Origin: [Empedobacter] haloabium
Lineage (GTDB): Bacteria; Pseudomonadota; Gammaproteobacteria; Burkholderiales; Burkholderiaceae_D
Direction: 5' to 3'
DNA: 64,000 nucleotides
Assembly (NCBI GenBank): GCA_008011715.2
Contig: CP136508.1
Coordinates: forward strand, 62,001-126,000
This document shows positions 49,637 to 64,000 of the stretch, in pieces. Every line of letters begins with the position of its first letter. The first letter of the stretch is position 1. The translations under genes were made by a program, and so were the position numbers. A model generated the notes under the pieces. It did no database searches. It had not been told where the DNA came from and saw only the letters and a program-made list of their open reading frames with translations.

Positions 49637-49719
49637 CGTCAGGTTTTTTTATCGAAATTGCGATAGGGGCGCGACGCCATGAGCGCCGCAGCAGCCGAAC
49701 CACCCGAGAAGGAATGCCT

Positions 49720-51195
49720 GTGAGCCAAACGCTGGTCCAGAAACTGACGCGTACCAAGCCTGTCGATCCCGCCGCCGAAGAAGATCATCCATCGCAGCCC
49801 GGCGGCCTGCACCGTTCGATTGGCCTGTTCGCCCTGACCATGATCGGCGTCGGCGCCACCATCGGCACCGGCATCTTCTTCACGATGGTCGAAGCGGTAC
49901 CGAAGGCCGGACCGGCCGTGATCCTGTCGTTCCTGATGGCCGCATTGACGGCCGGCCTGACGGCGCTGTGCTACGCCGAGCTGTCGTTCCGCATTCCCGC
50001 TTCCGGTTCCTCGTATTCGTTCGCGTATGCGACCGTCGGCGAATTCCTGGCCTTTATCATGGCGGCCTGCCTGCTGCTCGAATACGGCCTGGCGGCCAGC
50101 GCCACCGCCATCGGCTGGTCCGATTACCTGAACAACTTCCTGACCAATGCATTCGGCTGGCAGATCCCGCAGTTCCTGCGCACGCCGATGATCGTCTCGA
50201 CGCAGGAAGGCGTCGTCTTCAACGTCGGCCACATGAACCTGCCGCCGATCCTGCTGGTCTGCCTGTGCTGCTTCCTGCTGGTGCGCGGCACCAAGGAGTC
50301 CGCGACGATGAATGCCGTGATGGTGCTGATCAAGCTGGCCATCCTGATCTTCTTCGTCGCGATCGCGCTGCAGGGCTTCGACATCAATAACTTCAAGCCC
50401 TTCTTCAAGCCGGAAAATGCGGCGGGGCTGGCCGGCATGACGGGCGTGACCGCCGCCGCCGGCACCGTGTTCTTCTCGTTCATCGGCCTCGATACCGTCG
50501 CCACCGCTGGCGAGGAAGTACGCAACCCGAAACGCAACGTCCCGCTGGGCATTCTGGCGGCGCTGGTCATCGTGACCGTGTTTTATCTGCTGGTCGCGGT
50601 AGCTGCCGTCGGCGCGCAGCCAGCGCACATGTTCGAGCACCAGGAAGCCGGCCTGTCCGTCATCCTGCAAAACGTCACGGGCAAGGCCTGGCCGGCGCTG
50701 GTGCTGTCCGCCGGCGCCGTCATCTCCGTGTTTTCCGTCACGCTGGTGACGATCTACGGCCAGACCCGCATCCTGTATGCCATCTCGCGCGACGGCCTGA
50801 TCTCGAAGGTGTTCCACAAGGTGAACACGCGCACCGCATCCCCGGTCAGCAATACCGTCATCGTCTGCCTGGTCGTCGGCCTGGTGGCCGGCTTCGTCGA
50901 CGCCACCTTCCTGTGGGACATGGTCAGCATGGGCACGTTGACGGCCTTTATCGTCGTCTCGATCGCCGTGCCGGTCATGCGCCGCAAGGAGCGCCGCCTG
51001 GGCACGTACAAGAAGGGCGGCTTCCGCGTGCCGCTCGGTCCTTACCTGATTCCGGGCCTGTCGGTGCTGGCCTGCCTGTACATCATGAAGGACCTGTCGC
51101 ATACCACGCGGGTGATCTTCACGATCTGGATGGCGGCCTCGGTCCTGACGTACTTCGCCTACGGCATGCGCAACTCGCGCTTGAACAAGGTCTGA
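49720..51195 (+). CDS. APC-family amino acid permease (cationic amino acid type)
   Basis: An inner-membrane transporter of 491 residues with about twelve helices. The signature IGVGATIGTGIFF in helix 1, CYAELSFRIPASGSSYSFAY and the FFSFIGLDTVATAGEEVRNP motif in helix 6 place it with the CAT-type permeases (YhdG-like). GTG 49720 lies six bases after AAGGA; an ATG six bases earlier is in frame but leaves no spacing. Nearness to the AST cluster makes arginine or related amino acids plausible cargo. The S9 peptidase starts two bases after the stop. Confidence 0.87.
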   Translation: MSQTLVQKLTRTKPVDPAAEEDHPSQPGGLHRSIGLFALTMIGVGATIGTGIFFTMVEAVPKAGPAVILSFLMAALTAGLTALCYAELSFRIPASGSSYSFAYATVGEFLAFIMAACLLLEYGLAASATAIGWSDYLNNFLTNAFGWQIPQFLRTPMIVSTQEGVVFNVGHMNLPPILLVCLCCFLLVRGTKESATMNAVMVLIKLAILIFFVAIALQGFDINNFKPFFKPENAAGLAGMTGVTAAAGTVFFSFIGLDTVATAGEEVRNPKRNVPLGILAALVIVTVFYLLVAVAAVGAQPAHMFEHQEAGLSVILQNVTGKAWPALVLSAGAVISVFSVTLVTIYGQTRILYAISRDGLISKVFHKVNTRTASPVSNTVIVCLVVGLVAGFVDATFLWDMVSMGTLTAFIVVSIAVPVMRRKERRLGTYKKGGFRVPLGPYLIPGLSVLACLYIMKDLSHTTRVIFTIWMAASVLTYFAYGMRNSRLNKV

Positions 51196-51196
51196 T

Positions 51197-53125
51197 ATGC
51201 GAGTGAGCATACTGGCCCGGGCGGCCTTCGCCGCCACCGCCATCCTGGCCGGGAGCCAGGCGCAGGCCGGGCGCGAATACCGGGCCGTCGCGCTGGCCGC
51301 GGACGGCGAACGCCTCGTCGCCATCGAAAGCGCCGATACCGGCGCGGCGGGCCGCAAGGCGCATGCCGTCGTCGTCGTGCGCGATGCCCGCAGCGGCAAG
51401 ATCCTGAACGAGTACGACCCGTGCCGCCACTGCGCCTACGACCGCCCCAGCTGGTCGCCGGACGGGCGCAGCGTCGCGTTCATCGCCAGCGAGCAGGGTA
51501 GCGCGGCCGTCTACGTGGCGGCCAATGGCAAGACGCGTGCGCTCGCCACCGTGAAGGGCGTCGCCAACTCGGCGCGCTGGTCGCCGGACGGCAAGCAGGT
51601 AGCGTTGCTGGCCACCGTGGGCGCCAGCAAGGAGACCGGCGCGACGGCCGCCGGCGCGCGTCTGGTCGGCGAGATCGGCAGCCGCGAGGATGCCCAGCGC
51701 ATCGCCACGGTGCCCCTCACGGGCGGCGCCTTGAAGCTGCTCTCGCCGGACGACACCTTCATCTACGAATACGACTGGGCGCCGGACGGCAAGGGCTTCG
51801 TTGCCACCGGTGCCAAGGGCAATGGCGACAACAACTGGTGGGTGGCGAAGCTGGCCTATATCGACGCGACCTCCGGCGCGCTGCGCGTGATCGCCACGCC
51901 GACCACGCAGCTGAACATGCCGCGCGTCTCGCCGGACGGCCGTACCGTCGCCTATATCGGTGGCCTGATGAGCGACTTCGGCGCCATCGGCGGCGATGTG
52001 TATACCGTGCCGCTGGCCGGCGGCGAGCCGAAGAACATCACGCCAGCCTTCAAGGGCTCGTTCAATGGCCTGGCCTGGAAGCAGGGCGGCATTGTCGCCA
52101 CCGCGCTGATGGGCGACCAGATGACGGCATTGGCCGTCGATGCCGCCAGCGGTGCGACGACAAGGCTGTGGTCCGCGCCCGTGACGGCCAGCGCGGCGGA
52201 CGGCCGCCTGTCCTTCAGCGCGGACGGCGCCAGCGCCGCCGCGATCGTCGAGGACTTCACGCATGCGCCGCGCCTCGTCGCGGGGCGCCTGCCGCAACTG
52301 CAACCGATCACGCACGACAACGATGCGGCGCCGGCCCAGGTGAGCGTGCAGAACGTCAGCTGGACCAACGAAGGCTTCAATGTGCAGGGCTGGCTGGTCG
52401 GGCCTTTGCTACCGACGGCGGGAAAAAAATACCCGATGATCGTGCAGGTGCACGGCGGGCCGGCATCGGCCGTGACGCCGCGCTATATCGGCCCGGCCGA
52501 TACCGGCAACCCGCTGGTGCGGGAACTGGTCGGCGCTGGCTATTTCGTCTTCATGCCGAACCCGCGCGGCAGCTTCGGCCAGGGCCAGGAATTTACCCGC
52601 GCGAACCGGCGCGACTTCGGCGGCGGCGACCTGCGCGACATCCTCACCGGCGTGGATGCGGCAGCGCAGGTGGCGCCTGTCGATACGACGCGCCTGGGCC
52701 TGATGGGCCATTCCTACGGCGGCTTCATGACGATGTGGGGCGTAACGCACAGCCAGCGCTTCAAGGCGGCCGTCGCCGGCGCCGGCATCGCCAACTGGAT
52801 CAGCTACTACGGCCAGAACGGCATCGACCAGTGGATGGTGCCGTTCTTCGGCGCGACGATGTACGACGATCCCGCGATCTACCGCCAGCTCTCGCCGATC
52901 GATTCCATCAAGGTGGCGAAGACGCCGACGCTGGTCTACGTCGGTGAGCGCGATGTCGAAACGCCGGCGGCGCAGTCGATGGAGTTCTGGCACGCGCTGA
53001 AGGCGCTGAACGTGCCGACGTCGCTGGTGATCTACGAGGACGAAGGCCACGGCATCCGCAAGCCGGCGCACCAGCAGGATTTAAGGCGGCGCACCCTGGA
53101 GTGGTTCAACCGCTATCTTCAGTAG
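51197..53125 (+). CDS. S9-family serine peptidase (prolyl oligopeptidase-like), secreted
   Basis: A 642-residue peptidase with a signal peptide (MRVSILARAAFAATAIL... ending AQAG). The N-terminal half is a WD40-like beta-propeller (repeats such as PSWSPDGRSVAFI and ARWSPDGKQVALL). The C-terminal hydrolase domain has the nucleophile GHSYGGF (Ser506), the Asp region VGERDVETP and His in EDEGHGI. It likely cuts short peptides in the periplasm or outside. Coupling to the amino acid permease upstream suggests peptide scavenging. Confidence 0.9.
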   Translation: MRVSILARAAFAATAILAGSQAQAGREYRAVALAADGERLVAIESADTGAAGRKAHAVVVVRDARSGKILNEYDPCRHCAYDRPSWSPDGRSVAFIASEQGSAAVYVAANGKTRALATVKGVANSARWSPDGKQVALLATVGASKETGATAAGARLVGEIGSREDAQRIATVPLTGGALKLLSPDDTFIYEYDWAPDGKGFVATGAKGNGDNNWWVAKLAYIDATSGALRVIATPTTQLNMPRVSPDGRTVAYIGGLMSDFGAIGGDVYTVPLAGGEPKNITPAFKGSFNGLAWKQGGIVATALMGDQMTALAVDAASGATTRLWSAPVTASAADGRLSFSADGASAAAIVEDFTHAPRLVAGRLPQLQPITHDNDAAPAQVSVQNVSWTNEGFNVQGWLVGPLLPTAGKKYPMIVQVHGGPASAVTPRYIGPADTGNPLVRELVGAGYFVFMPNPRGSFGQGQEFTRANRRDFGGGDLRDILTGVDAAAQVAPVDTTRLGLMGHSYGGFMTMWGVTHSQRFKAAVAGAGIANWISYYGQNGIDQWMVPFFGATMYDDPAIYRQLSPIDSIKVAKTPTLVYVGERDVETPAAQSMEFWHALKALNVPTSLVIYEDEGHGIRKPAHQQDLRRRTLEWFNRYLQ

Positions 53126-53337: not shown

Positions 53338-55134
53338 TCAGCGGAAATGCCCCTCGATCTCCTCCAAGGTCTTCCCTTTCGTCTCCGGCAGCAGGAACGC
53401 CGCCGTCAGGAAGTACAGGACCGTACACCCCGCCCAGAAGAAGAACATGACCGCATAGCCATGCTGCCCCACCGTCGGCAGGAACACGGCGGCGATCACG
53501 GTCGAGACGAACTGGTTGACCAGCAGCGCCACGCTCATGCCGTTGGACCGGATGCGCGTCGGCATCAGCTCGGATAGCGCCAGCCACACGCACACGCCCG
53601 GCCCCACCGCGAAGCTGGCCACGAACAGGCAGATCGCCGCCGTCATGCGCCAGCCGTGCGAAGGCGGCGGCACCGCGCCCAGCTGGGCGCGTTCGATCCG
53701 CAGCGGCGCCGTGCGCGCGTCCGCCGGGTCGGCGAACGGATTCAGGTGCAGCTGGCGGAAGAAGGCGCCGATCACGCTGTCTTCCTGCACCGCGTCGGCG
53801 CGGCGGATGTGCAGCACCGGCAGGCCGGCGTCGTCGCTGCGGCGCGTCGCCACATTGGTGAACGGGCCGTAGCGATAAGCGACCGTCAGCAACTGCGGCG
53901 CTTCGCCGGCCTCGGCGCCGAGCGCCCGCAGCGTCGCATCGTCCAGGCGCAGCGTGACGCTGTCGTCCCGCACCTGGGCCGCGATGGCGGCACGCACGTC
54001 GCGTTGCCCGCTTTCGGCGTGGTGGAACAGCAGTCCTGCCGCCAGCAGCGCCAGCACGATGCCGCCGCTGCCCAGCATCAGCAGGAATTTGCGGCCCTTG
54101 CGGTCCACCAGCACGACGGCGACGACCGTCATCACGGCATTCAGTACCTTCAGCCCGACGTCGGCCGCATTGGCCGTGGCGCCTGGCAGGCCGGCCTGGT
54201 TCAGGATATTGACGACGTAGGCCAGCACCGAGTTGATGCCGGTGGCCTGGGTCAGCGCGAGGATCAGGCAGGCCAGCAGGAACGGCAGCACGTAGCGGCG
54301 GCTCAGCAGGCGATCGCTCGCGGCTGCCCCGCCGGTTGGGCCGGAACGCGCGGCAGCCTGCATGTCACGCAGCTCGGCGTCCGCCTCGGCCGGCGCGCGC
54401 GTGCGCAGCAGCGCACGGTGCGCAGCATCGGTGCGGCCGCGCCGCATCAGCCAGCGCGGCGACTCGGCCAGCAGCGCGCTGCCGAAGGTGAACACGAGAC
54501 CGGGCGTGAGGCACATCCAGAAGATGCTGCGCCAGGCATGGTCGCGCGCCGCGAACAGCGCTTCCACCCGCGCCGCTTCCGACAGCGCCTGCGCCGCTGC
54601 GGCCGCCGCGTCCACCGTACGCGCCTGCAGCAGGCCGATCACGGCCGCCGCCACCAGGCCGATCGTCAGCAGCAGCTGGAACAGCGCAGCGCCGCGGCCG
54701 CGCTGGTCGGCGCGCAGGCACTCGGCCAGGTAGAGCGGCACGATGACGCCGATCAGCCCCCCACTGACGCCTTGCAGCAGACGCCCGAGCAGCAGCGGCA
54801 GGTAGCCGTCGGCCAGCGCGATCAAGGGAATGCTGGCGGTGAACAGCGCGCCGGACAGCACCATGGCCCAGCGTCGCCCGATGGCATCGGCGATGGCGCC
54901 GGCGAACAGCGAAGACAGCACGGAGCCGAGCAGCACGGCCGCGACGATAAAGCTCAGCTGCTGCGCGCTCAGGCGCCAGGCTTCCTTGGCGGTCGCTTCC
55001 AGGTAGGGCAGGGCGCCGGCGATGATGCCGACGTCGATCCCGTACAGCAGGCCGCCCATGCCGGCAATGAACAGCAGGTAGCGGATCGGCCAGGCGGGCG
55101 CGCTGACGGCGCCGGGCAGGGTAGCAGCATGCAT
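53338..55134 (-). CDS. agaP: Sugar porter family MFS permease (probable GalNAc importer)
   Basis: A 598-residue inner-membrane transporter. Sugar-porter signatures are clear: GGLLYGIDVGIIAGALPYLE in helix 1, AIADAIGRRWAM, ESPRWLMRRGR after helix 6 and PETKGKTLEEIEGHF at the end. Residues about 372-492 form an unusual hydrophilic insert between late helices, well beyond the roughly 470-residue norm. ATG 55134 has AAGGAG. It is the last gene of the aga operon, so GalNAc or galactosamine is the likely cargo; the symbol is by role only. Confidence 0.8.
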   Translation of the reverse strand: MHAATLPGAVSAPAWPIRYLLFIAGMGGLLYGIDVGIIAGALPYLEATAKEAWRLSAQQLSFIVAAVLLGSVLSSLFAGAIADAIGRRWAMVLSGALFTASIPLIALADGYLPLLLGRLLQGVSGGLIGVIVPLYLAECLRADQRGRGAALFQLLLTIGLVAAAVIGLLQARTVDAAAAAAQALSEAARVEALFAARDHAWRSIFWMCLTPGLVFTFGSALLAESPRWLMRRGRTDAAHRALLRTRAPAEADAELRDMQAAARSGPTGGAAASDRLLSRRYVLPFLLACLILALTQATGINSVLAYVVNILNQAGLPGATANAADVGLKVLNAVMTVVAVVLVDRKGRKFLLMLGSGGIVLALLAAGLLFHHAESGQRDVRAAIAAQVRDDSVTLRLDDATLRALGAEAGEAPQLLTVAYRYGPFTNVATRRSDDAGLPVLHIRRADAVQEDSVIGAFFRQLHLNPFADPADARTAPLRIERAQLGAVPPPSHGWRMTAAICLFVASFAVGPGVCVWLALSELMPTRIRSNGMSVALLVNQFVSTVIAAVFLPTVGQHGYAVMFFFWAGCTVLYFLTAAFLLPETKGKTLEEIEGHFR

Positions 55135-55144
55135 CGACACTCCT

Positions 55145-56224
55145 TCACAGAATGGCTTCGCCTTCCACATGGACGGCGACCGGTTGCAGGTCCTGGTCGA
55201 GGACCACGATATCGGCCCAGGCGCCGGGCACCAGGCGACCGCGCTCGGTCTCGCCCAGGTAGTCGGCGGGGTACAGCGACAAGCGGTGCGACGCGTCGGC
55301 CAGGTCCAGGCCCATGCCGACCAGGTTGCGCAGCGCCTGGTCCATCGTCAGCACGCTGCCGGCCAGCGAGCCGGTCGCCAACCGCACGCAGCCCAGGCAT
55401 TTGTAGACGCGCTGCGAGCCCAGTGCATATTCGCCGTCCGGCATGCCGGTGGCCGCGGTGGCGTCGGTGATGCCATAGGCGCGCGGGATCGCGCGCAGCG
55501 CGGCCAGGATGGCGCCCGGGTGCACATGCTGCAGGTCGGGAATGATCTCGGCATATTCGGCGTGGGCCAGCGCCGCGTCGACGATGCCGGGCTGGTAATG
55601 GTCCATGCCCGTCATGCCGTTGAACAGGTGGGTGAAGCCGGCCGCGCCGGCCCGCAGCGCCGCCACGCCGTCGTCGTAGCTGCCGTTCGAGTGGCCGACC
55701 TGCACGCGCATGCCCAGCGCCGCCAGCTGCGGGATCAGGGCCAGGTGGCCGGGCACCTCCGGCGCCATCGTCAGCACGCGGATCGGCGCGATGGCATCCA
55801 GGCTTTGCACCAGCTCCAGCGTGGCCGGCATCACGTGCGGCGGTTGCGCGCCCAGCCGGTGCGCGCTGATGAACGGGCCTTCCAGGTGCACGCCCAGCAT
55901 GCGCGCGCCGCGCTCGGGGCGCTGCGCGATCACGCCGGCCAGCCCCGCCAGCGCATGCCGGATCGCCGGCTCGTGCGCCGTCATGGTGGTGCCCAGCAGG
56001 GAGGTGGTGCCATGGCGCGCATGTTCGCGCGCCACGACGGCGCCGGCATCGCCGCCGCGCATGATGTCCACGCCGGCGGCGCCGTGCACGTGCAGGTCGA
56101 TGAAGCCAGGCAGGATGGTCAGTCCGGTATCGGCCGGCGCCGCCGCGATGCGGTCGATACGCTGGCCGAATTCGATGGTGCCGGTGACCCAGCCTTCCGG
56201 TGTAAGAATCCTGCCTGCCAGCAT
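55145..56224 (-). CDS. agaA: N-acetylgalactosamine-6-phosphate / N-acetylglucosamine-6-phosphate deacetylase
   Basis: A metal-dependent amidohydrolase of 359 residues (NagA/AgaA family). The metal site IDLHVHGAAGVDIMRG, the Glu region GVHLEGPFIS, the two His at VGHSNGSYDDG and THLFNGMTGMDH, and the catalytic Asp in GITDATAATG are all present. By sequence it cannot be separated from NagA; the aga operon context favours GalNAc-6-P. It starts 9 bp after agaR and precedes the permease by 10 bp. Confidence 0.86.
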   Translation of the reverse strand: MLAGRILTPEGWVTGTIEFGQRIDRIAAAPADTGLTILPGFIDLHVHGAAGVDIMRGGDAGAVVAREHARHGTTSLLGTTMTAHEPAIRHALAGLAGVIAQRPERGARMLGVHLEGPFISAHRLGAQPPHVMPATLELVQSLDAIAPIRVLTMAPEVPGHLALIPQLAALGMRVQVGHSNGSYDDGVAALRAGAAGFTHLFNGMTGMDHYQPGIVDAALAHAEYAEIIPDLQHVHPGAILAALRAIPRAYGITDATAATGMPDGEYALGSQRVYKCLGCVRLATGSLAGSVLTMDQALRNLVGMGLDLADASHRLSLYPADYLGETERGRLVPGAWADIVVLDQDLQPVAVHVEGEAIL

Positions 56225-56233
56225 GGTGCCTCG

Positions 56234-57001
56234 CTAGTCGGTGATGATCAACTCGATACCAAGCTTCTGCAGGCCCTCGCGGTATTCCTGGCTGATGCCG
56301 GCATCGGTGATGATGGTGTGGACGCGTTCCAGCTGCACGATGCGGTGCAGGCTGACGCGGCCGAATTTGGACGCGTCGGTGACGACGATGATCTTCTTGG
56401 CCCGCTCCGCCATCTTGTGGTTCAGGCTGGCCTCGGCCTCATGGTGCGTGGTCACGCCGAACTGCAGGTCGAGGCCATCGACGCCGAGGAACAGCTTGTC
56501 GAAGTTGTAGGCCTGCAGGCAGGCTTCGGCCTGGGTGCCCTGGATCGACAGCGACTGCTTGCGCAGCAGGCCGCCCGTCAGGATCAGGTCCACGCCCGGC
56601 GCGTCGGCCAGCTCCCAGGCGATGTTCAGGCCATTGGTCATGACGGTGACGCCTTCGGCTTCGCGCAGGTGGCGCGCCAGCGAGATCGTCGTGGTGCCCG
56701 AATCGATGATGATGTTGTCGCCTGGCTGCACCAGCTGCGCCGCACGTGCGCCGATGCGTTCCTTCTGTTCCTGGTTGATGGCGTCCTTCTGGCGGATCGT
56801 CTGCTCGGTCGGCGGCGTGCGCGTCAGCGTGGCGCCGCCATGGCTGCGCGTGGCCAGGCCCTGCGCTTCCAGGGCACTGAGGTCGCTGCGGATCGTCACC
56901 GCCGACACGCCGAATGCCTCGACCAGGTCGGTAACCTGGACGGCGCCGTCGCGGACGAGCAGTTGCAGGATGGATTCGCGGCGTTGGCTGGTATTGCGCA
57001 T
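56234..57001 (-). CDS. agaR: DeoR-family repressor AgaR
   Basis: A 255-residue repressor. The N-terminal DeoR helix-turn-helix (RRESILQLLVRDGAVQVTDL, then VSAVTIRSDLSALEAQGLATRSHGGA) precedes the sugar-phosphate sensor domain (IIIDSGTTTISLARHL, DKLFLGVDGLD, VVTDASKFGR). AgaR proteins bind multiple CTTTC pentamers, and six occur in the divergent region at 60439-60737. The gene is inside the operon it would control. The ATG at 57001 is chosen over a longer frame that overlaps agaZ. Confidence 0.87.
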   Translation of the reverse strand: MRNTSQRRESILQLLVRDGAVQVTDLVEAFGVSAVTIRSDLSALEAQGLATRSHGGATLTRTPPTEQTIRQKDAINQEQKERIGARAAQLVQPGDNIIIDSGTTTISLARHLREAEGVTVMTNGLNIAWELADAPGVDLILTGGLLRKQSLSIQGTQAEACLQAYNFDKLFLGVDGLDLQFGVTTHHEAEASLNHKMAERAKKIIVVTDASKFGRVSLHRIVQLERVHTIITDAGISQEYREGLQKLGIELIITD

Positions 57002-57035
57002 GGTGGTTTCGCTGACGGTCAAAATCCACAGCTTA

Positions 57036-58352
57036 TCAGAGCGCCGGCACCGGCAGCTCGGCCCGGTTGCGGCTGCAGGCCCGGGCATACTGGGCCAGCA
57101 CGCGGCCGATCTTGTGCTGCACCAGCGCCTGTGCGCGCGTGCTCAACTGGCCCTGCAGCACGTCCAGGTACTGGTCCGGCAGGTGCTGGGACAGCAGTGG
57201 CAGCGGGATCTCGCGCGCATCGAGATTGAGGAACAGGCGCTGCACGGCGGCGGCCACCTCCGGCTCACCCCAGTAGTAGCGGCACCGGTCGGAGAGGCCA
57301 TAGCGGCGCAGCACGCGCTGCTCGTCGCTGCTGCCGGCGTAGTGCGCGCGCCAGTGCTGCGGTTTGGCGAGCATGACATCCTCGAGCACCTGCATCAGGC
57401 GCGAGCGCTGCGCCGGCACCACCAGTTCGTCCTCGATCTGGCACAGCGCCAGCAGGGCCTCGCGCAGCGCGAACGTGGCCGCGGGCCCCACCTTCAGGAT
57501 GGCAAAGTGGTCGCGCACCATCGCATGCAGGCTGGCCTCGCGCTGGTAGTCGGTGGAATGCGCTTCGAATACCAGGCCGGGATGGCCCGCCAGCCATTCC
57601 GACAGCGCCGCCGCCTGGCGTGGATCGTAATGCTGGATATGGCTGGCGTCGAAGTCCACGCCCGGCTGCACCACCAGCGCGACCACGCGGCGCCACGCGT
57701 CGCGCAGACCCGCTGCCGCGAAGGCCTGGCGGTGCACTTCCAGTGTGCGCGCGGCGGCACTCGGTGCCGTCGGCGCGCCGGCATCGGCCAGGGCCGCCTC
57801 GCCGCCGGGCACTGGCACTTCGGTGCCGATCACGTACACGGGCGGTGGCAGGCCGGCAGCGGCGGCCGCGGCTTCGGCGGCCTCGCACAGGCGGGCGGAG
57901 CGCAGGGCTACCGTCTCGTCGCTCAGGCGCTCCGGGTCGTCGGCGCAGCGCATGCTGCAGTCCAGGTGAATCTTGTGGAAGCCCGCGCCGGCATAGGCCG
58001 CGACCAGGGTTTCCGCATGGGCCATTGCCGTTGCCGCGTCCTGGCGCTGCCACGCGTTCGGACCGAGATGGTCGCCGCCCAGGATAAGGCGCTCGGCCGG
58101 GAAGGCCTGTTCGCGCGCCAGTTGCAGCAAGTGTTCGCGGAACTGTGCCGGCGTCATGCCCGTGTAGCCGCCGAACTGGTCGACCTGGTTCGACGTGGCC
58201 TCCACCAGCAGGGGCGTATCGTAGGCGAGCGCCACGCGCATCGCGGCGCGCAGCACCAAAGGGTGGCTGCAGCAGACGCTGTACAGGCCGACGGCCGCGC
58301 CGCGGCGATGCTGCTGCACGATGCGCTGGACGGGGGAGAAGGTCTGGTTCAT
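57036..58352 (-). CDS. agaZ: AgaZ/KbaZ-family tagatose-6-phosphate protein
   Basis: A 438-residue protein of the D-tagatose-bisphosphate aldolase non-catalytic subunit family (KbaZ/GatZ/AgaZ). Motifs include GLYSVCCSHPLVLRAAM, LVEATSNQVDQFGGYTGM, LILGGDHLGPNAW and KIHLDCSMRC. In the E. coli pathways it supports the class II aldolase; a kinase role for tagatose 6-phosphate has also been proposed for AgaZ. No catalytic AgaY/KbaY partner is in the window. Its start overlaps the ROK kinase stop (ATGA). Confidence 0.87.
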   Translation of the reverse strand: MNQTFSPVQRIVQQHRRGAAVGLYSVCCSHPLVLRAAMRVALAYDTPLLVEATSNQVDQFGGYTGMTPAQFREHLLQLAREQAFPAERLILGGDHLGPNAWQRQDAATAMAHAETLVAAYAGAGFHKIHLDCSMRCADDPERLSDETVALRSARLCEAAEAAAAAAGLPPPVYVIGTEVPVPGGEAALADAGAPTAPSAAARTLEVHRQAFAAAGLRDAWRRVVALVVQPGVDFDASHIQHYDPRQAAALSEWLAGHPGLVFEAHSTDYQREASLHAMVRDHFAILKVGPAATFALREALLALCQIEDELVVPAQRSRLMQVLEDVMLAKPQHWRAHYAGSSDEQRVLRRYGLSDRCRYYWGEPEVAAAVQRLFLNLDAREIPLPLLSQHLPDQYLDVLQGQLSTRAQALVQHKIGRVLAQYARACSRNRAELPVPAL

Positions 58353-59299
58353 GGCTGGGATCCGGCGGTTGAAGTGGCTTGACGGGCCAGCAGCGCGGCG
58401 CCGCGCGCACCGCCGGCGGCGCCGAAGCGCGGCGGCAGGATCGGCGGCACGCGCACGCCACGGAACAGGTGGCGCTGCACGGCGGCCGGCAGTTGCTGGT
58501 ACAGGTGGGAGAGATTCGACAGCCCGCCGCCCAGCACGATGGCATGCGGATCGCAAGCGAGCACGATGCCGGCCAGCGCATGGCCCAGCAGGTCGAGGTG
58601 GACGCCCAGGGCCCGGGTCGCGGCCGCGTCGCCGGTGGCGTCGCGCGCCACGATAGCCAGCGGCTCGGCGCCGCTGCCGCCGTAGTGGGCATGCAGGCTG
58701 CTCATGCCAGGCCCGGACACGTAGCGCTCCAGGCAGCCCTGCTTGCCGCACGGGCACTCCAGCAGCGGCAGCGCATGGCGCGCCAGCAGCGGTGCCGGTA
58801 TCGTCCAGTGGCCCCATTCGCCGGCAATGCCGTTGAAGCCGCGCTGCAGCCGCCCCTCGGCGCAATAGCCGCCGCCCGCGCCGGTGCCGACGATGGCGCC
58901 GAACATCGTCGGCAGGCCGTCAGCCGCGCCGCCTTGCGCTTCGGAGAGCGCGAAGCACTGGCAATCGTTGCCGATCGCGACCGGTCGCTCGAGCGCCTGC
59001 TGCAGCGTCGCCGCCACCTCGCGGCCGTTCAGCGCCGGCACGTTCGAGCTGACCTGGCGGCCGGTGGCCGTATCGATGATGCCCGGCAGGCCGATCCCGA
59101 CCGGGGCGCGGCCACGCAGTGCCGCATCGCCGCGTGTCACCAGGCCGACGATGGCGGCGACAAACGCGGCAAAGTCGACGCCGGGCGTGGCGATCCGTTC
59201 GCGGAAGACTTCGGCAAAGGCGCCGTCGTACGCCACCAGTTCGATCTTGGTGCCGCCGATGTCGATGCCGTGCCAGCCGTGGCGCTCAGCGCTGCTCAT
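58349..59299 (-). CDS. agaK: ROK-family amino sugar kinase (probable GalNAc kinase)
   Basis: A 316-residue sugar kinase. The ATP site is GIDIGGTKIELVAYDG. The catalytic region is RPVAIGNDCQCFALSE (Asp), with GTGAGGGYCAEG. The ROK zinc site is complete (ECPCGKQGCLERYVSG with upstream His). Sequence alone would suggest an N-acetylglucosamine kinase; position between agaS and agaZ points to GalNAc. It overlaps both neighbours by four bases. Confidence 0.85.
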   Translation of the reverse strand: MSSAERHGWHGIDIGGTKIELVAYDGAFAEVFRERIATPGVDFAAFVAAIVGLVTRGDAALRGRAPVGIGLPGIIDTATGRQVSSNVPALNGREVAATLQQALERPVAIGNDCQCFALSEAQGGAADGLPTMFGAIVGTGAGGGYCAEGRLQRGFNGIAGEWGHWTIPAPLLARHALPLLECPCGKQGCLERYVSGPGMSSLHAHYGGSGAEPLAIVARDATGDAAATRALGVHLDLLGHALAGIVLACDPHAIVLGGGLSNLSHLYQQLPAAVQRHLFRGVRVPPILPPRFGAAGGARGAALLARQATSTAGSQP

Positions 59300-60438
59300 G
59301 GTTGATCGTGACGGTGGATGGTCACGCCCTGGACGACGCGGTTGACGGTGCCGTCGGCGAAGGGATTGTCCGGCGTCAGCCCCAGCGCGGCCGACTGGTG
59401 CAGCGCATACTGCTGCGCCATCAGCAGCCACAGAGGCGCCAACCAGGCATCGGCCCAAGCCGGGACATCGGCGGCGAAATCGCCGTCGCGGCCGACCGTC
59501 ACGCAGCCGCCGGCCACGCCATCGCGGCGCAGCTCGTCGAGCAGGTCCTGCTCATAGCGCTGCGCCAGCGTGGCGCTGCCGCGGAGCAGCACTACCAGCG
59601 TTTGCGCGTTCAGGGCCGACTTGGGACCATGGCGGAAACCCAGCGGCGTTTCGGCCAGGGCCAGCACGCGGCCGCCCGTCAGTTCCAGGATCTTCAGCGC
59701 CGACTCCTTCGCCAGCGCTTCCAGCGGGCCGCTGCCCAGGTAGACCACCCGCTGCACCGGCCGCGCGGCCAGCGCCGCTACCGGCGCGGCCCAGTCCCGC
59801 AGCGCCTGTTCGGCCAGCGCGGCCAGTTGCGGCAGCCGCTCCGCATACCGTTCCTTGCCCAGCACGGCCAATGCCGCCAGCAGCATGCAGGTAAAGCTGC
59901 TGGTCATCGCGAAGCCGCGGTCGCAGCTGGCCGGCGGCATCAGGAGGTTCAATACACGACCGCCTGGATGGTCCGCATGCTGCCGTGCCAGCGCGCCCTC
60001 GGCGTTGCAGGTGATGTTCAGGAAGCGCGCGTCGCGGACCACGTCGCGCACCAGCTCCACGGCGGCCAGGCTTTCCGGGCTGTTGCCGCTGCGGGCGAAC
60101 GACACCAGCAATGTCGGCACGTCATGGCGCAGGTACAGGTCCGGGTGCGTCAGCAGGCTGGTGGTCGCCACCGCGCGCACCTGGGCAGGCCAGCAGCGAT
60201 CCAGTTCGTCGGCCACGATGGCGCCCACGTAAGCCGAACTGCCGGCGCCGGTCAGGATCACGCGCTGGGCCGGATTGTTCAGGCGCTCGCCCAGGAAGGC
60301 CGCGATCGCCGGCTGTGCCGCACACAAGTCGTCGCGCAGCGCGCGCCAGACTGCCGGCTGCTGGGCGATCTCTTCGGCGGTGGCGAGGCCGTCGATGTCG
60401 CGCCAGGCTTGAGGATCGCGGTTCAGGAGATGGGTCAT
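59296..60438 (-). CDS. agaS: Galactosamine-6-phosphate deaminase/isomerase AgaS
   Basis: A 380-residue protein with two SIS domains (ILTGAGSSAYVGAIVADEL with LLVSFARSGNSPESLAAVEL, and VVYLGSGPLEALAKESALKI). It ends GVTIHRH. AgaS converts galactosamine 6-phosphate to tagatose 6-phosphate and ammonia. It is the first gene of the operon and begins at the divergent regulatory region. It overlaps the kinase start by four bases. Confidence 0.88.
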   Translation of the reverse strand: MTHLLNRDPQAWRDIDGLATAEEIAQQPAVWRALRDDLCAAQPAIAAFLGERLNNPAQRVILTGAGSSAYVGAIVADELDRCWPAQVRAVATTSLLTHPDLYLRHDVPTLLVSFARSGNSPESLAAVELVRDVVRDARFLNITCNAEGALARQHADHPGGRVLNLLMPPASCDRGFAMTSSFTCMLLAALAVLGKERYAERLPQLAALAEQALRDWAAPVAALAARPVQRVVYLGSGPLEALAKESALKILELTGGRVLALAETPLGFRHGPKSALNAQTLVVLLRGSATLAQRYEQDLLDELRRDGVAGGCVTVGRDGDFAADVPAWADAWLAPLWLLMAQQYALHQSAALGLTPDNPFADGTVNRVVQGVTIHRHDQP

Positions 60439-60737
60439 CGAAAATAAAAGAAAGTAGAAGTTTCATGAAGCGTAGTCTCGTCATTTCGAAAAGTCAATTA
60501 AGAAAGTGAAACGAAAGAAAATCCGCCATCATGTTTCGCGCTGGCGGTCATTCCCCTGCGTTGCCCGCGCTGAAATGTGGTCAAATCGCCACGATAAAGA
60601 AAGTTTGCGGCGCAGCATTGGGCTAAACCGAAAGATAAATCGGCCTAAAGAACAAAATTACTTTTCTTTTTATTGACGCTTACGTTTTTCGTTTCTAAAG
60701 TAGGCCTGTCAAAACCGCAATGCTTTCGGATCGTTCG
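60439..60737. promoter_or_regulatory. Divergent aga/GH31 control region with AgaR-type CTTTC boxes
   Basis: The 299-bp AT-richer gap has six exact CTTTC/GAAAG pentamers: GAAAG at 60450, 60502, 60513, 60599, 60630 and CTTTC at 60723. CTTTC in multiple copies is the reported AgaR signature. Minus-strand promoter for agaS: TTGACT (60492-60497), 17 bp, TACGCT (60469-60474). Plus-strand promoter for the glycosidase: TTGACG (60673-60678), 17 bp, TAAAGT (60696-60701), with TTTTTCGTTTC filling the spacer. Both transcripts are therefore likely AgaR-repressed. Confidence 0.75.
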
Positions 60738-63700
60738 ATGAAAACACGTCTCGCAGCTGTCCTGTTCCTGGCCACAATGGCCGCCCACGCGGCGCCGGTT
60801 GGCAACCTGCGTACCCTGACGGCCGATGGCCCGCAGGGCTGGCGCATCGTTACCGACACGGGCGCCCGCCTGCGCGTCAGCCTGCCGCGCGTGGACGTGC
60901 TGCATGTGGAAGCCGCCGCGCCGGGGCTGGAGTTCACGGGGCCGGGCGACAAGGCGGCGGCCATCGTCGTCGGCCAGCCCGCGTCCGATGTGGCGCCGGT
61001 CCTGCGCGACGCGGGCGACCACGTGCTGATCGAGACCGCCGCCCTGGCGCTGCGCATCGATCGCAAGCCGCTGCGCTTGTCGCTGTACCGCGCCGGGAAT
61101 CGCGACGCGCTGTGGCGCGAGGTGGAGCCGCTGGAACTGACCAAGGGCCAGAGTGTGCAAGTGCTGTCCAGCGACAAGGACGAGCGCTTCTTCGGCGGCG
61201 GCCAGCAGAACGGCCGTTTCGAATTCAAGGGGCGCCAGCTGGAGGTATCGTATTCGGGCGGCTGGGAGGAGGGCGACCGTCCCAGCCCGGCGCCATTTCT
61301 CATGAGCTCGCGCGGCTGGGGCATGCTGCGCAATACCTGGGCGGACGGCAGCTATGACCTGCGCGACGCCAACCAGGCGACCTTGCAGCACGCCGAGAGC
61401 CGCTTCGACGCGTACTACTTCGTCGGCAGGGATGTGCGCGACGTGCTGGCGCGGTACACCGAGTGGACCGGGCGTCCGCCCCTGCTGCCGCGCTGGGCGC
61501 TGGAATACGGCGATGCGGACTGCTACAACGACGGCGACAACGTGAAAAAGCCCGGCACCGTGCCGCCGGGGTGGAGCGACGGCCCCACCGGCACCACGCC
61601 GGACGTGGTCGAGAGCGTGGCAAAGCGCTACCGCGAGCACGACATGCCGGGCGGCTGGATCCTGCCGAACGACGGCTATGGCTGTGGCTACAAGGCGCTG
61701 CCGGAAACCGTGCAGGGCCTGGCGAAATACGGTTTCCGCACCGGCCTGTGGACCGAGAACGGCGTCGACAAGATCGCCTGGGAAGTGGGCCAGGCCGGCA
61801 GCCGCGTGCAGAAGCTGGACGTGGCATGGACCGGAAAAGGTTATCAATTCTCGCTGGACGCCAACAAGTCGGCCTATGACGGCATCGTGCACAACTCCGA
61901 CAGCCGCCCCTTCATCTGGACCGTGATGGGCTGGGCCGGCACCCAGCGCTACGCCGTGGCGTGGACGGGCGACCAGAGCGCCAGCTGGGACTACATCCGC
62001 TGGCACGTGCCGACCTTGATCGGCTCCGGCCTGTCCGGCCAGGCCTATGCCACCGGCGACGTCGATGCCATCTTCGGCGGCAGCCCGGAAACCTACACGC
62101 GCGACCTGCAGTGGAAAGCCTTTACGCCGGTGTTGATGGGCATGTCCGGCTGGGCCGCCGCGGAGCGCAAGCATCCGTGGTGGTTCGATGAACCCTATCG
62201 CTCGATCAACCGGCGCTACCTGAAGCTCAAGATGCGCCTCACGCCCTACATGTACGGCCTGGCGCGCGAGGCCGAGACGACGGGGGCGCCGCTGGTGCGC
62301 GGCCTGATGTGGGACTACCCGGCCGATCCGGCCGCGTGGACCGAAGCCTACAAATACCAGTTCCTGCTGGGACGCGACCTGCTGGTGGCGCCGGTGTACC
62401 GCAGCCAGGCCGTGTCGCAGGGCTGGCGCAAGGGCATCCACCTGCCGCAGGGCCGCTGGATCGATTACTGGGACGGCCGCCAAGCCACGGCGGGTGCGGC
62501 GGGGCGCGACCTCGACGTGCAGGTCACGCTGGACAAGCTGCCGGTATTCGTGCGCGCCGGCGCGATCCTGCCGATGTATCCCGATATGCTATACGACGGC
62601 CACAAGCCGAAGGACGTGCTGACGCTCGACCTGTATCCGGAAGGCGACTCGAGCTACACCTTGTACGAGGACGACGGCAACACGCGCCAGTACCGGCAGG
62701 GCGCGTTCAGCACCCAACAACTTCGCATGCGCGCCGAGGGCGCGGACGTGCGCGTCGATATCGATCCGGTCGACGGCAGCTATGCCGGTCAGCTGGCGCA
62801 GCGCGGCTATGCCTTGCGCATGCTGGCGATGCGCCGTCCCGCGACCGTCGCGGCCAACGGTGTCGCGCTGACGGCGCATGCCAGCCGCGTCGACTTCGAC
62901 GCCGCCATCACCGGCTGGTGGTTCGACGCGGCCGAGCGCCAGGGCACACTGCACGTCAAGACCGCCAGCCAGGACATCCGCCAGCCGCTGGCGTTCGACA
63001 TCAAAGGCGCCCTCGGCCTGCGCGACGACGACCCGTTCCCGGCAGCGCCCGTGCCCGGCCGGGCGCTGCCGGCCGACGCGATGGTGGTGGTAAACCGTCC
63101 CGCCGAGGAAGCGGGGCACCCTCTGGAGAAGGCATTCGACGCCGATCCCGCCACCTGGTTCCGCACCGTGCGCAGCCAGGCCGTGCGCAGCGGCCCCCAC
63201 GAATGGGTGATCGGTTTCACGGAGCGGCGCCTGATCGACGGGATCGAGCTGGCACCGCGCACCGACCAGCACTGGCGCCATGGCCAGATTCGCGACTACG
63301 AAATCTATGTGGCCGACAACAACGGCGACTGGGGCGGCCCGGTCCAGCGTGGCCGGCTGGTGCTGCGCGAAGGCACGCAGGCAATCGCCTTCCCGCCCAC
63401 TGCGGGCCGTCTGCTGCGCTTCCGCGTGCTGAGCACGCAGAACCCGGAAGGCGACGGCGCGGCAGCAACCGATCCGATGGTCACGGCCGCGCAGGGCGAT
63501 GCAGCGCGTGCCCACAACGCCACATTGCCGCAGGAGGTAGGGCCGATCACCTTGTCCACGTTCCGCGTCCTGGAACATCGCGCGCCAGAGACGGCGGAGC
63601 GCCAACTGTACCTGTCCGATCTGGCGCTGCCGCGCGGCGTGGCGCGCGACAAGCCGGCCGGCAAGGCGGGTGCCGAGGCGATGCGCATGAACGGCCTGCG

Positions 63701-64000
63701 CTTTCGCAAGGGCCTCGGCGTAGGCGCGAACAGCCGCATCGACGTGGCCCTGGCCGGCAACTGGACTTTGCTGCGCGCCGACCTGGGCGTGGACGACAGC
63801 TGCCGCGCCGCCGGGGGCCTGCAGTTCCAGGTATGGAGCGGCACACGCCTGCTGTACGACAGCGGCTTGGTCACGGCGCCGGCCGTCGTCAAGCCGGAAA
63901 TCGACGTGCGCGGGCTCTCGAGCCTCAGCCTGCGCACGCTGGGCGCGCGTGGCGCCCGTCCGGCCCAGGTCTGCGCCAACTGGGCCAATGCCGTGTTGAC
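60738..64000 (+). CDS. Secreted GH31 glycosidase, probable alpha-N-acetylgalactosaminidase (partial, runs off window)
   Basis: At least 1087 residues, with no stop before the window end. Signal peptide MKTRLAAVLFLATMAAHA. A GH31 N-terminal beta domain leads to the barrel. The likely nucleophile is Asp361 (QKLDVAW, replacing the usual WxDMNE) and the acid/base is Asp412 (WTGDQSASWDY). The TYTRDLQWKAFTPVLMGMSGW block follows. A discoidin-like F5/8C domain (about 793-910) and an NPCBM domain (about 955 onward) come after, both carbohydrate-binding. The non-canonical nucleophile region and aga operon context suggest the GalNAc-specific GH31 branch. The substrate is inferred. Confidence 0.8.
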   Translation, partial: MKTRLAAVLFLATMAAHAAPVGNLRTLTADGPQGWRIVTDTGARLRVSLPRVDVLHVEAAAPGLEFTGPGDKAAAIVVGQPASDVAPVLRDAGDHVLIETAALALRIDRKPLRLSLYRAGNRDALWREVEPLELTKGQSVQVLSSDKDERFFGGGQQNGRFEFKGRQLEVSYSGGWEEGDRPSPAPFLMSSRGWGMLRNTWADGSYDLRDANQATLQHAESRFDAYYFVGRDVRDVLARYTEWTGRPPLLPRWALEYGDADCYNDGDNVKKPGTVPPGWSDGPTGTTPDVVESVAKRYREHDMPGGWILPNDGYGCGYKALPETVQGLAKYGFRTGLWTENGVDKIAWEVGQAGSRVQKLDVAWTGKGYQFSLDANKSAYDGIVHNSDSRPFIWTVMGWAGTQRYAVAWTGDQSASWDYIRWHVPTLIGSGLSGQAYATGDVDAIFGGSPETYTRDLQWKAFTPVLMGMSGWAAAERKHPWWFDEPYRSINRRYLKLKMRLTPYMYGLAREAETTGAPLVRGLMWDYPADPAAWTEAYKYQFLLGRDLLVAPVYRSQAVSQGWRKGIHLPQGRWIDYWDGRQATAGAAGRDLDVQVTLDKLPVFVRAGAILPMYPDMLYDGHKPKDVLTLDLYPEGDSSYTLYEDDGNTRQYRQGAFSTQQLRMRAEGADVRVDIDPVDGSYAGQLAQRGYALRMLAMRRPATVAANGVALTAHASRVDFDAAITGWWFDAAERQGTLHVKTASQDIRQPLAFDIKGALGLRDDDPFPAAPVPGRALPADAMVVVNRPAEEAGHPLEKAFDADPATWFRTVRSQAVRSGPHEWVIGFTERRLIDGIELAPRTDQHWRHGQIRDYEIYVADNNGDWGGPVQRGRLVLREGTQAIAFPPTAGRLLRFRVLSTQNPEGDGAAATDPMVTAAQGDAARAHNATLPQEVGPITLSTFRVLEHRAPETAERQLYLSDLALPRGVARDKPAGKAGAEAMRMNGLRFRKGLGVGANSRIDVALAGNWTLLRADLGVDDSCRAAGGLQFQVWSGTRLLYDSGLVTAPAVVKPEIDVRGLSSLSLRTLGARGARPAQVCANWANAVL

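Follow-up and report, generated by a model that had tools for sequence, protein, structure and literature searches.

The analyzed window, a stretch of 64,000 nucleotides (positions 62001-126000 of contig C1, the only contig of the 6.48-Mb [Empedobacter] haloabium genome, G000), ends in a locus at which genes for the harvesting, import and catabolism of N-acetylgalactosamine (GalNAc) appear to form one jointly controlled set. Homology, gene order and conserved footprints make it likely that this locus is an AgaR-repressed regulon for alpha-linked GalNAc, with AgaZ as the epimerase that ends the pathway. Six packed genes on the minus strand encode a porter, a NagA-like deacetylase, AgaR, AgaZ, a ROK kinase and AgaS, with 4-bp overlaps at agaS/ROK and ROK/agaZ, and a gene for a large secreted protein of glycoside hydrolase family 31 (GH31) diverges from agaS on the plus strand. 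This arrangement had been described in an earlier sequence-only reading and is borne out by the gene calls and domain matches.

The footprint suggests that, without inducer, AgaR would keep both operons off by binding to CTTTC half-sites at the -35 box of each of the two divergent promoters. In the presence of GalNAc, a TonB receptor encoded in the plus-strand operon would take GalNAc-bearing glycans or glycopeptides across the outer membrane, and two exported alpha-N-acetylgalactosaminidases (alpha-GalNAcases) of the families GH31 and GH109 would release GalNAc outside the cytoplasm. The minus-strand porter, judged by its family, would import the sugar; the ROK kinase, the deacetylase and AgaS would convert it to tagatose-6-phosphate (tagatose-6-P), and AgaZ would epimerize the latter to fructose-6-phosphate (fructose-6-P).

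The last step departs from the usual map of GalNAc catabolism. AgaZ matched TIGR02810 with 603.4 bits (cut-off 568.8) and the structure 2fiq with 437 bits, and its fold family is class II aldolase-like and not a kinase family. Seven active-site residues are named in PMC11907403 (C20, E44, D87, H88, E171, H257 and K279). Their counterparts in AgaZ (198, 222, 265, 266, 349, 436 and 458, counted in the frame 57036-58865) were identical in 154 of 154 AgaZ sequences compared, with some genomes counted twice. According to the same paper, tagatose formation from fructose-6-P is restored in Escherichia coli by GatZ and KbaZ but by none of fbaA, kbaY and gatY; for the reverse reaction, it refers to Sinorhizobium (PMC11907403).

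The occurrence of aldolases was quantified in three sets of genomes. PF08013 was matched in 53 of 398 genomes of a phylum sample; without G000, 7 weak matches and 5 low-scoring ones, 40 loci remained for comparison. AgaS was found near AgaZ in 24 of the 40 loci, and a class II aldolase lay within the stretch in only 9 of these 24. Among the 15 genomes without an adjacent aldolase, 7 had one elsewhere, and 8 had none above the cut-off in the whole genome; five of these 8 belong to one family (f17), and one (G576) contains a 20-bit class II aldolase fragment. The second set comprised 294 genomes of the home family, and exactly one class II aldolase was present in 38 of the 39 with a close AgaS; the exception, G108 (82% complete), has two. 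The single class II aldolase of G000 is located about 255 kb from the operon. In the third set, 80 loci kept of 210 confirmed ones from named genomes, some of which are also in the family set, a housekeeping class II aldolase query had no match in the flanks. The possibility that AgaZ is the subunit of a neighboring aldolase was therefore rejected, and the pairing of KbaY or GatY with a Z subunit that characterizes the KbaYZ/GatYZ tagatose-bisphosphate aldolases was not found at the locus.

Two further routes were also discarded. A LacD-type aldolase was matched in 1 of 34 genomes searched (1 of the 15 without an adjacent class II aldolase); this sole match, in G597 about 7 kb from its AgaZ, scored 402.6 bits and thus below the cut-off of 432.2. 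A LacC-type kinase was not found either, as none of the 8 PfkB proteins of G000 reaches the cut-off of the 1-phosphofructokinase family that contains LacC.

Because of the aldolase counts, the activities of GatZ and KbaZ in PMC11907403, and the conserved residues, we read AgaZ as the 4-epimerase that closes the pathway. AgaZ is unlikely to be an aldolase subunit, and fructose-6-P is the probable end point of the pathway, so that neither a tagatose-6-P kinase nor a tagatose-bisphosphate aldolase would be needed. On balance, the evidence favors the view that the usual GalNAc map is wrong for many AgaS-AgaZ loci, at which AgaZ would be the terminal tagatose-6-P 4-epimerase and KbaY/AgaY an optional addition. 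This would explain why agaY, as stated in PMC4694137, had earlier been shown to be dispensable for GalNAc use.

The most serious alternative is that the same regulon has the canonical ending: AgaZ would stabilize the housekeeping class II aldolase or phosphorylate tagatose-6-P itself, and phosphofructokinase or another kinase would provide tagatose-1,6-bisphosphate for the aldolase. The literature would agree with this, as AgaZ is called a kinase in PMC4694137, proposed as a kinase in PMC12118421, and called an aldolase subunit in PMC3668189. Two results also count against the epimerase. The invariant residues of AgaZ are the same with or without an adjacent aldolase and alone do not separate the roles, and G000 contains, besides its one class II aldolase, a phosphofructokinase (302 bits) that could phosphorylate tagatose-6-P, so that a canonical ending is possible in this genome. 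Nevertheless, we regard it as unlikely, given the fold family of AgaZ, the eight AgaS-AgaZ genomes without a class II aldolase above the cut-off (the search did not extend to class I fructose-bisphosphate aldolases), the near absence of LacD and the failure of all PfkB proteins at the cut-off. The conflict about AgaZ (kinase, aldolase subunit or epimerase) can be tested in organisms without a competing aldolase. Among open-licence papers, none was found that deals with this locus or describes AgaZ as an epimerase in GalNAc use.

The linkage between the aga genes and GH31 is widely conserved. GH31 was present in 50 of the 294 family genomes (E <= 1e-100), and in 36 of these 50 loci, all of which were compared, the aga genes face GH31. 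A GH31 with 64% identity is found near AgaS, AgaZ and ROK in a different family (L257). In 79 of the 80 named loci the aga genes are linked to GH31, and the individual genes were retained in similar numbers: AgaS and ROK in 79 each, AgaZ and AgaR in 78 each, the deacetylase in 75, the TonB receptor in 72, GH109 in 70 and the porter in 67. The genera include Duganella, Rugamonas, Janthinobacterium, Massilia, Pseudoduganella, Stenotrophomonas, Lysobacter, Pseudoxanthomonas, Luteimonas, Roseateles, Pelomonas, Paucibacter and others. About 4.7 kb separate AgaS from GH31 in 4 of 79 loci (L119, L123, L130 and L134); in L119, this spacer contains a TonB receptor gene and a DUF5077/DUF3472 gene.

The 299-bp gap between the two operons contains six CTTTC/GAAAG pentamers (at 60450, 60502, 60513, 60599, 60630 and 60723), and this direct count agrees with the sequence-only reading. 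CTTTC is reportedly the AgaR signature of Leyn et al. in 2012. Of 5000 dinucleotide shuffles of this gap, 6 had at least six pentamers (mean 1.39), and at least three occurred in 11 of 1275 sliding 299-bp windows across the whole stretch. In the 36 orthologous gaps of the family, CTTTC ranked first of all 5-mers, with 225 observed versus 45.8 expected occurrences. It again ranked first in 42 gaps from outside the family (L153-L198 minus three home-family loci and L196, which is without AgaS), with 292 versus 64. The shuffles and the enrichment in two gap sets thus rule out a chance origin. AgaR itself matched NF040755 with 342.6 bits (cut-off 260), and the candidate CTTTC operators lie at the aga promoters. 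The prediction of an AgaR-controlled GalNAc regulon has accordingly gained in strength, as the linkage and the putative operator footprint are kept across several bacterial families.

The arrangement of the pentamers around both promoters, which had also been claimed, holds for the agaS side but not for the GH31 side. In an alignment of ten sequences, most relatives have pentamers that correspond to those at 60502, 60513, 60599 and 60630; the two at 60450 and 60723 lack such a correspondence. Beside the -35 box of agaS, a GAAAG pair spaced by 9-13 bp is found in all 36 family gaps, including this one, and in 25 of 42 others. In 32 of the family gaps and 25 of the others the spacing is exactly 11 bp, and the first GAAAG of the pair is present in 41 of the 42 outside-family gaps. 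We place the agaS promoter by a conserved GTCAA (TTGAC on the minus strand) at 60493-60497; this is our own reading, as a promoter consensus scan of the gap returned the GH31 promoter only. On the GH31 side, 29 of 36 family gaps and 23 of 42 others have a CTTTC that precedes the -35 box by at most 14 bp; in this genome it is degraded to CTTTT. The pair in the middle of the gap was rejected as a general operator, since its spacing of 30-33 bp recurs in only 17 of the 36 family gaps and in 1 of the 42 others. Sites beside -35 boxes would fit repression by blocking of the polymerase.

The pentamers might instead reflect A/T-rich promoter sequence or a different regulator. This would be in line with the enrichment of CGAAA and AAAGT in the gaps. 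It also speaks against AgaR that no further sites stand out in G000, where genome-wide matches equaled the reversed controls for the pentamer pair (12 versus 12) and the triplet (7 versus 7); a wider regulon was therefore dismissed, as no further member can be named, with mixed orientations left unscanned. However, CTTTC ranks first in both gap sets, and the 14 GH31 genes without linked aga genes have 0-3 pentamers in the 350 bp upstream, so that we consider a source other than AgaR very unlikely.

The GH31 protein, with a Sec-type signal peptide (judged by eye; alternative start at 60720), consists of GH31, F5/8C and NPCBM domains (Pfam). Its best solved match is the GH31 alpha-GalNAcase of Enterococcus faecalis (6m76/7f7r/7f7q, 393-397 bits), and the next-best solved GH31 reached only 192 bits, about half of that score. 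The catalytic Asp positions, residues 367 and 418 in the frame starting at 60720 and presumably the nucleophile and the acid/base, did not vary among the 136 GH31 sequences compared, to which some genomes contributed twice; residue 367 aligns with a position that is Asn in 7f7r. The adjacent GH109 protein contains PF21252 (284 bits) and an RRGFLQ motif resembling a twin-arginine (Tat) signal (judged by eye), and it matched the solved alpha-GalNAcase 2ixa with 499 bits. The closeness to characterized enzymes predicts that the GH31 is an alpha-GalNAcase, and the earlier idea that the glycosidase frees GalNAc is strengthened by the TonB receptor and GH109 genes in the same putative operon, which lie outside the window and were hidden from the earlier reading. 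The receptor suggests that GalNAc is released only after uptake of the glycan into the periplasm. Two unrelated alpha-GalNAcase families would then be used together by environmental bacteria, and proteins whose current records say alpha-glucosidase or give a domain name would receive a predicted function. That the GH31 cleaves another alpha-glycoside (a glucoside or galactoside) and lies beside the aga genes incidentally is hardly credible: public records name its orthologues alpha-glucosidase, alpha-xylosidase or after domains, and 14 relatives are not adjacent to aga genes, but the wide margin of the best match, the GH109 partner and the conserved linkage all argue otherwise.

Several observations weigh against the proposed regulon. 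The 14 GH31s of family genomes without an aga cluster (L068-L081; 58-63% identity) occur in genomes without an AgaS match, whereas 60 of the 294 genomes have one (E <= 1e-60), and thus this GH31 clade is not tied to the GalNAc pathway everywhere; a different active site in the 14 was rejected, as two compared segments are nearly identical. Conversely, a close AgaS occurs without a GH31 (E <= 1e-100) in G199, G219 and G254. A GH31_18 enzyme of another bacterium cut para-nitrophenyl-alpha-GalNAc and none of the native substrates on which it was tried (PMC13096917). Lastly, three enzymes of the predicted pathway score under their closest curated cut-offs: AgaS (TIGR02815, 400.1 versus 529.2 bits, residues 17-376 of 380), the ROK kinase (PF00480; best NCBIfam match N-acetylglucosamine kinase, 267.7 versus 380 bits) and the deacetylase (TIGR00221, 211.7 versus 225.65 bits). 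For AgaS the family resemblance is clear, and its equivalence to the TIGR02815 members is putative.

The porter exceeds its cut-off (TIGR00879, 250.9 versus 237.8 bits), its AlphaFold2 (AF2) model has the sugar-porter fold, and sugar porters were retrieved when the whole model was used as a structure query. An insert forms a small alpha/beta domain in the model and would face the periplasm if the usual topology of the major facilitator superfamily (MFS) applies. All orthologues checked cover it (35 of 35 and 67 of 67, overlapping sets), and all 120 listed of 369 matches to this region are MFS proteins.

Features of the GalNAc locus and of related loci (C1, contig coordinates; L numbers, coordinates in the respective locus; other numbers, window positions)
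Feature	Position	Strand	Basis
GH31 alpha-N-acetylgalactosaminidase (predicted)	60738..64000, continues past the window to C1:126034	+	Pfam, PDB sequence search
Divergent promoter/operator region, 299 bp, six CTTTC/GAAAG pentamers	60439..60737	.	pentamer counts, orthologous gaps
GH31 promoter TTGACG-17-TAAAGT (60673-60701) with degraded pentamer CTTTT upstream of -35	60663..60701	+	
Mid-gap GAAAG pair, 31 bp apart	60599..60634	.	
GAAAG pair 11 bp apart beside agaS -35 box; best-conserved AgaR site candidate	60502..60517	.	
agaS, galactosamine-6-P deaminase/isomerase (predicted)	59296..60438	-	TIGR02815
ROK kinase, predicted GalNAc kinase	58349..59299	-	PF00480
agaZ, GatZ/KbaZ family, predicted tagatose-6-P 4-epimerase	57036..58352	-	TIGR02810, 2fiq, active-site residues
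agaR, DeoR-family repressor	56234..57001	-	NF040755
NagA-like deacetylase, predicted GalNAc-6-P deacetylase	55145..56224	-	TIGR00221
MFS sugar porter, predicted GalNAc importer (open reading frame open from 55170)	53338..55134	-	TIGR00879, AF2 model
Porter insert, residues 376-490, about 115 residues, between transmembrane helices TM9 and TM10	53665..54009	-	model, orthologues
TonB receptor, 990 aa, downstream of GH31, outside window	C1:126096-129068	+	
GH109 protein, 467 aa, 4-bp overlap with TonB receptor gene, outside window	C1:129065-130468	+	
DUF5077/DUF3472 gene	L060:14062-15315, L064:15596-16870, L119:8679-9986, L120:19367-20719, L144:16549-17853, L184:16489-17946		
DUF3472 with ricin-type lectin domain, Lysobacter	L168:16229-17629		
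Second-kind TonB receptor	L039:15976-19017, L052:9803-12802, L119:5614-8664, L140:13364-16417		

Beyond the porter gene, the window encodes an amino-acid permease and an S9 peptidase that is probably secreted (49714-53125); among 36 family loci, the S9 peptidase gene was matched in this genome only. In several relatives, a DUF5077/DUF3472 gene, absent from the operon of this genome, lies within or beside the GH31/TonB/GH109 operon, and in some the operon includes a TonB receptor of a second kind, whose N-terminal domain is carboxypeptidase-regulatory-like. One record, named Bacillus subtilis SK7B5 (L169), contains a Stenotrophomonas-like locus, a sign that the assembly may be mislabelled or contaminated.

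An Aga regulon of Proteobacteria with AgaK, AgaAII and AgaS is reportedly known from Shewanella through the work of Leyn et al. in 2012. The predicted regulon shares with it non-PTS uptake (not by a phosphotransferase system), a kinase, a deacetylase, AgaS and the AgaR family, and also, reportedly, the CTTTC sites. In contrast to what is known of that regulon, GH31, GH109 and the TonB receptor here share the divergent control region, and agaZ occurs without agaY. The Shewanella genes are listed as agaP, ompAga, agaAII, agaK and agaS in PMC2996990. With the GatZ/KbaZ C4 epimerases of PMC11907403, AgaZ shares the family and the seven named residues, but it is found beside AgaS in a predicted GalNAc pathway and without GatY/KbaY. 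The GH31 resembles the GH31_18 alpha-GalNAcases (E. faecalis 6m76, its best solved match; BT3169 of Bacteroides thetaiotaomicron, PMC11992087) in its aligned catalytic Asp, and differs by its C-terminal F5/8C and NPCBM domains and by adjoining a GalNAc catabolic operon. In B. thetaiotaomicron, according to the same paper, separately encoded GH31 and GH109 alpha-GalNAcases both act on mucin glycans, and the polysaccharide utilization locus BT4240-50 likewise combines a GH109 alpha-GalNAcase with a GalNAc kinase and an MFS protein for GalNAc from mucin. Its GH31 (BT3169), however, is encoded away from BT4240-50, whereas here both predicted glycosidases and the whole catabolic operon lie together.

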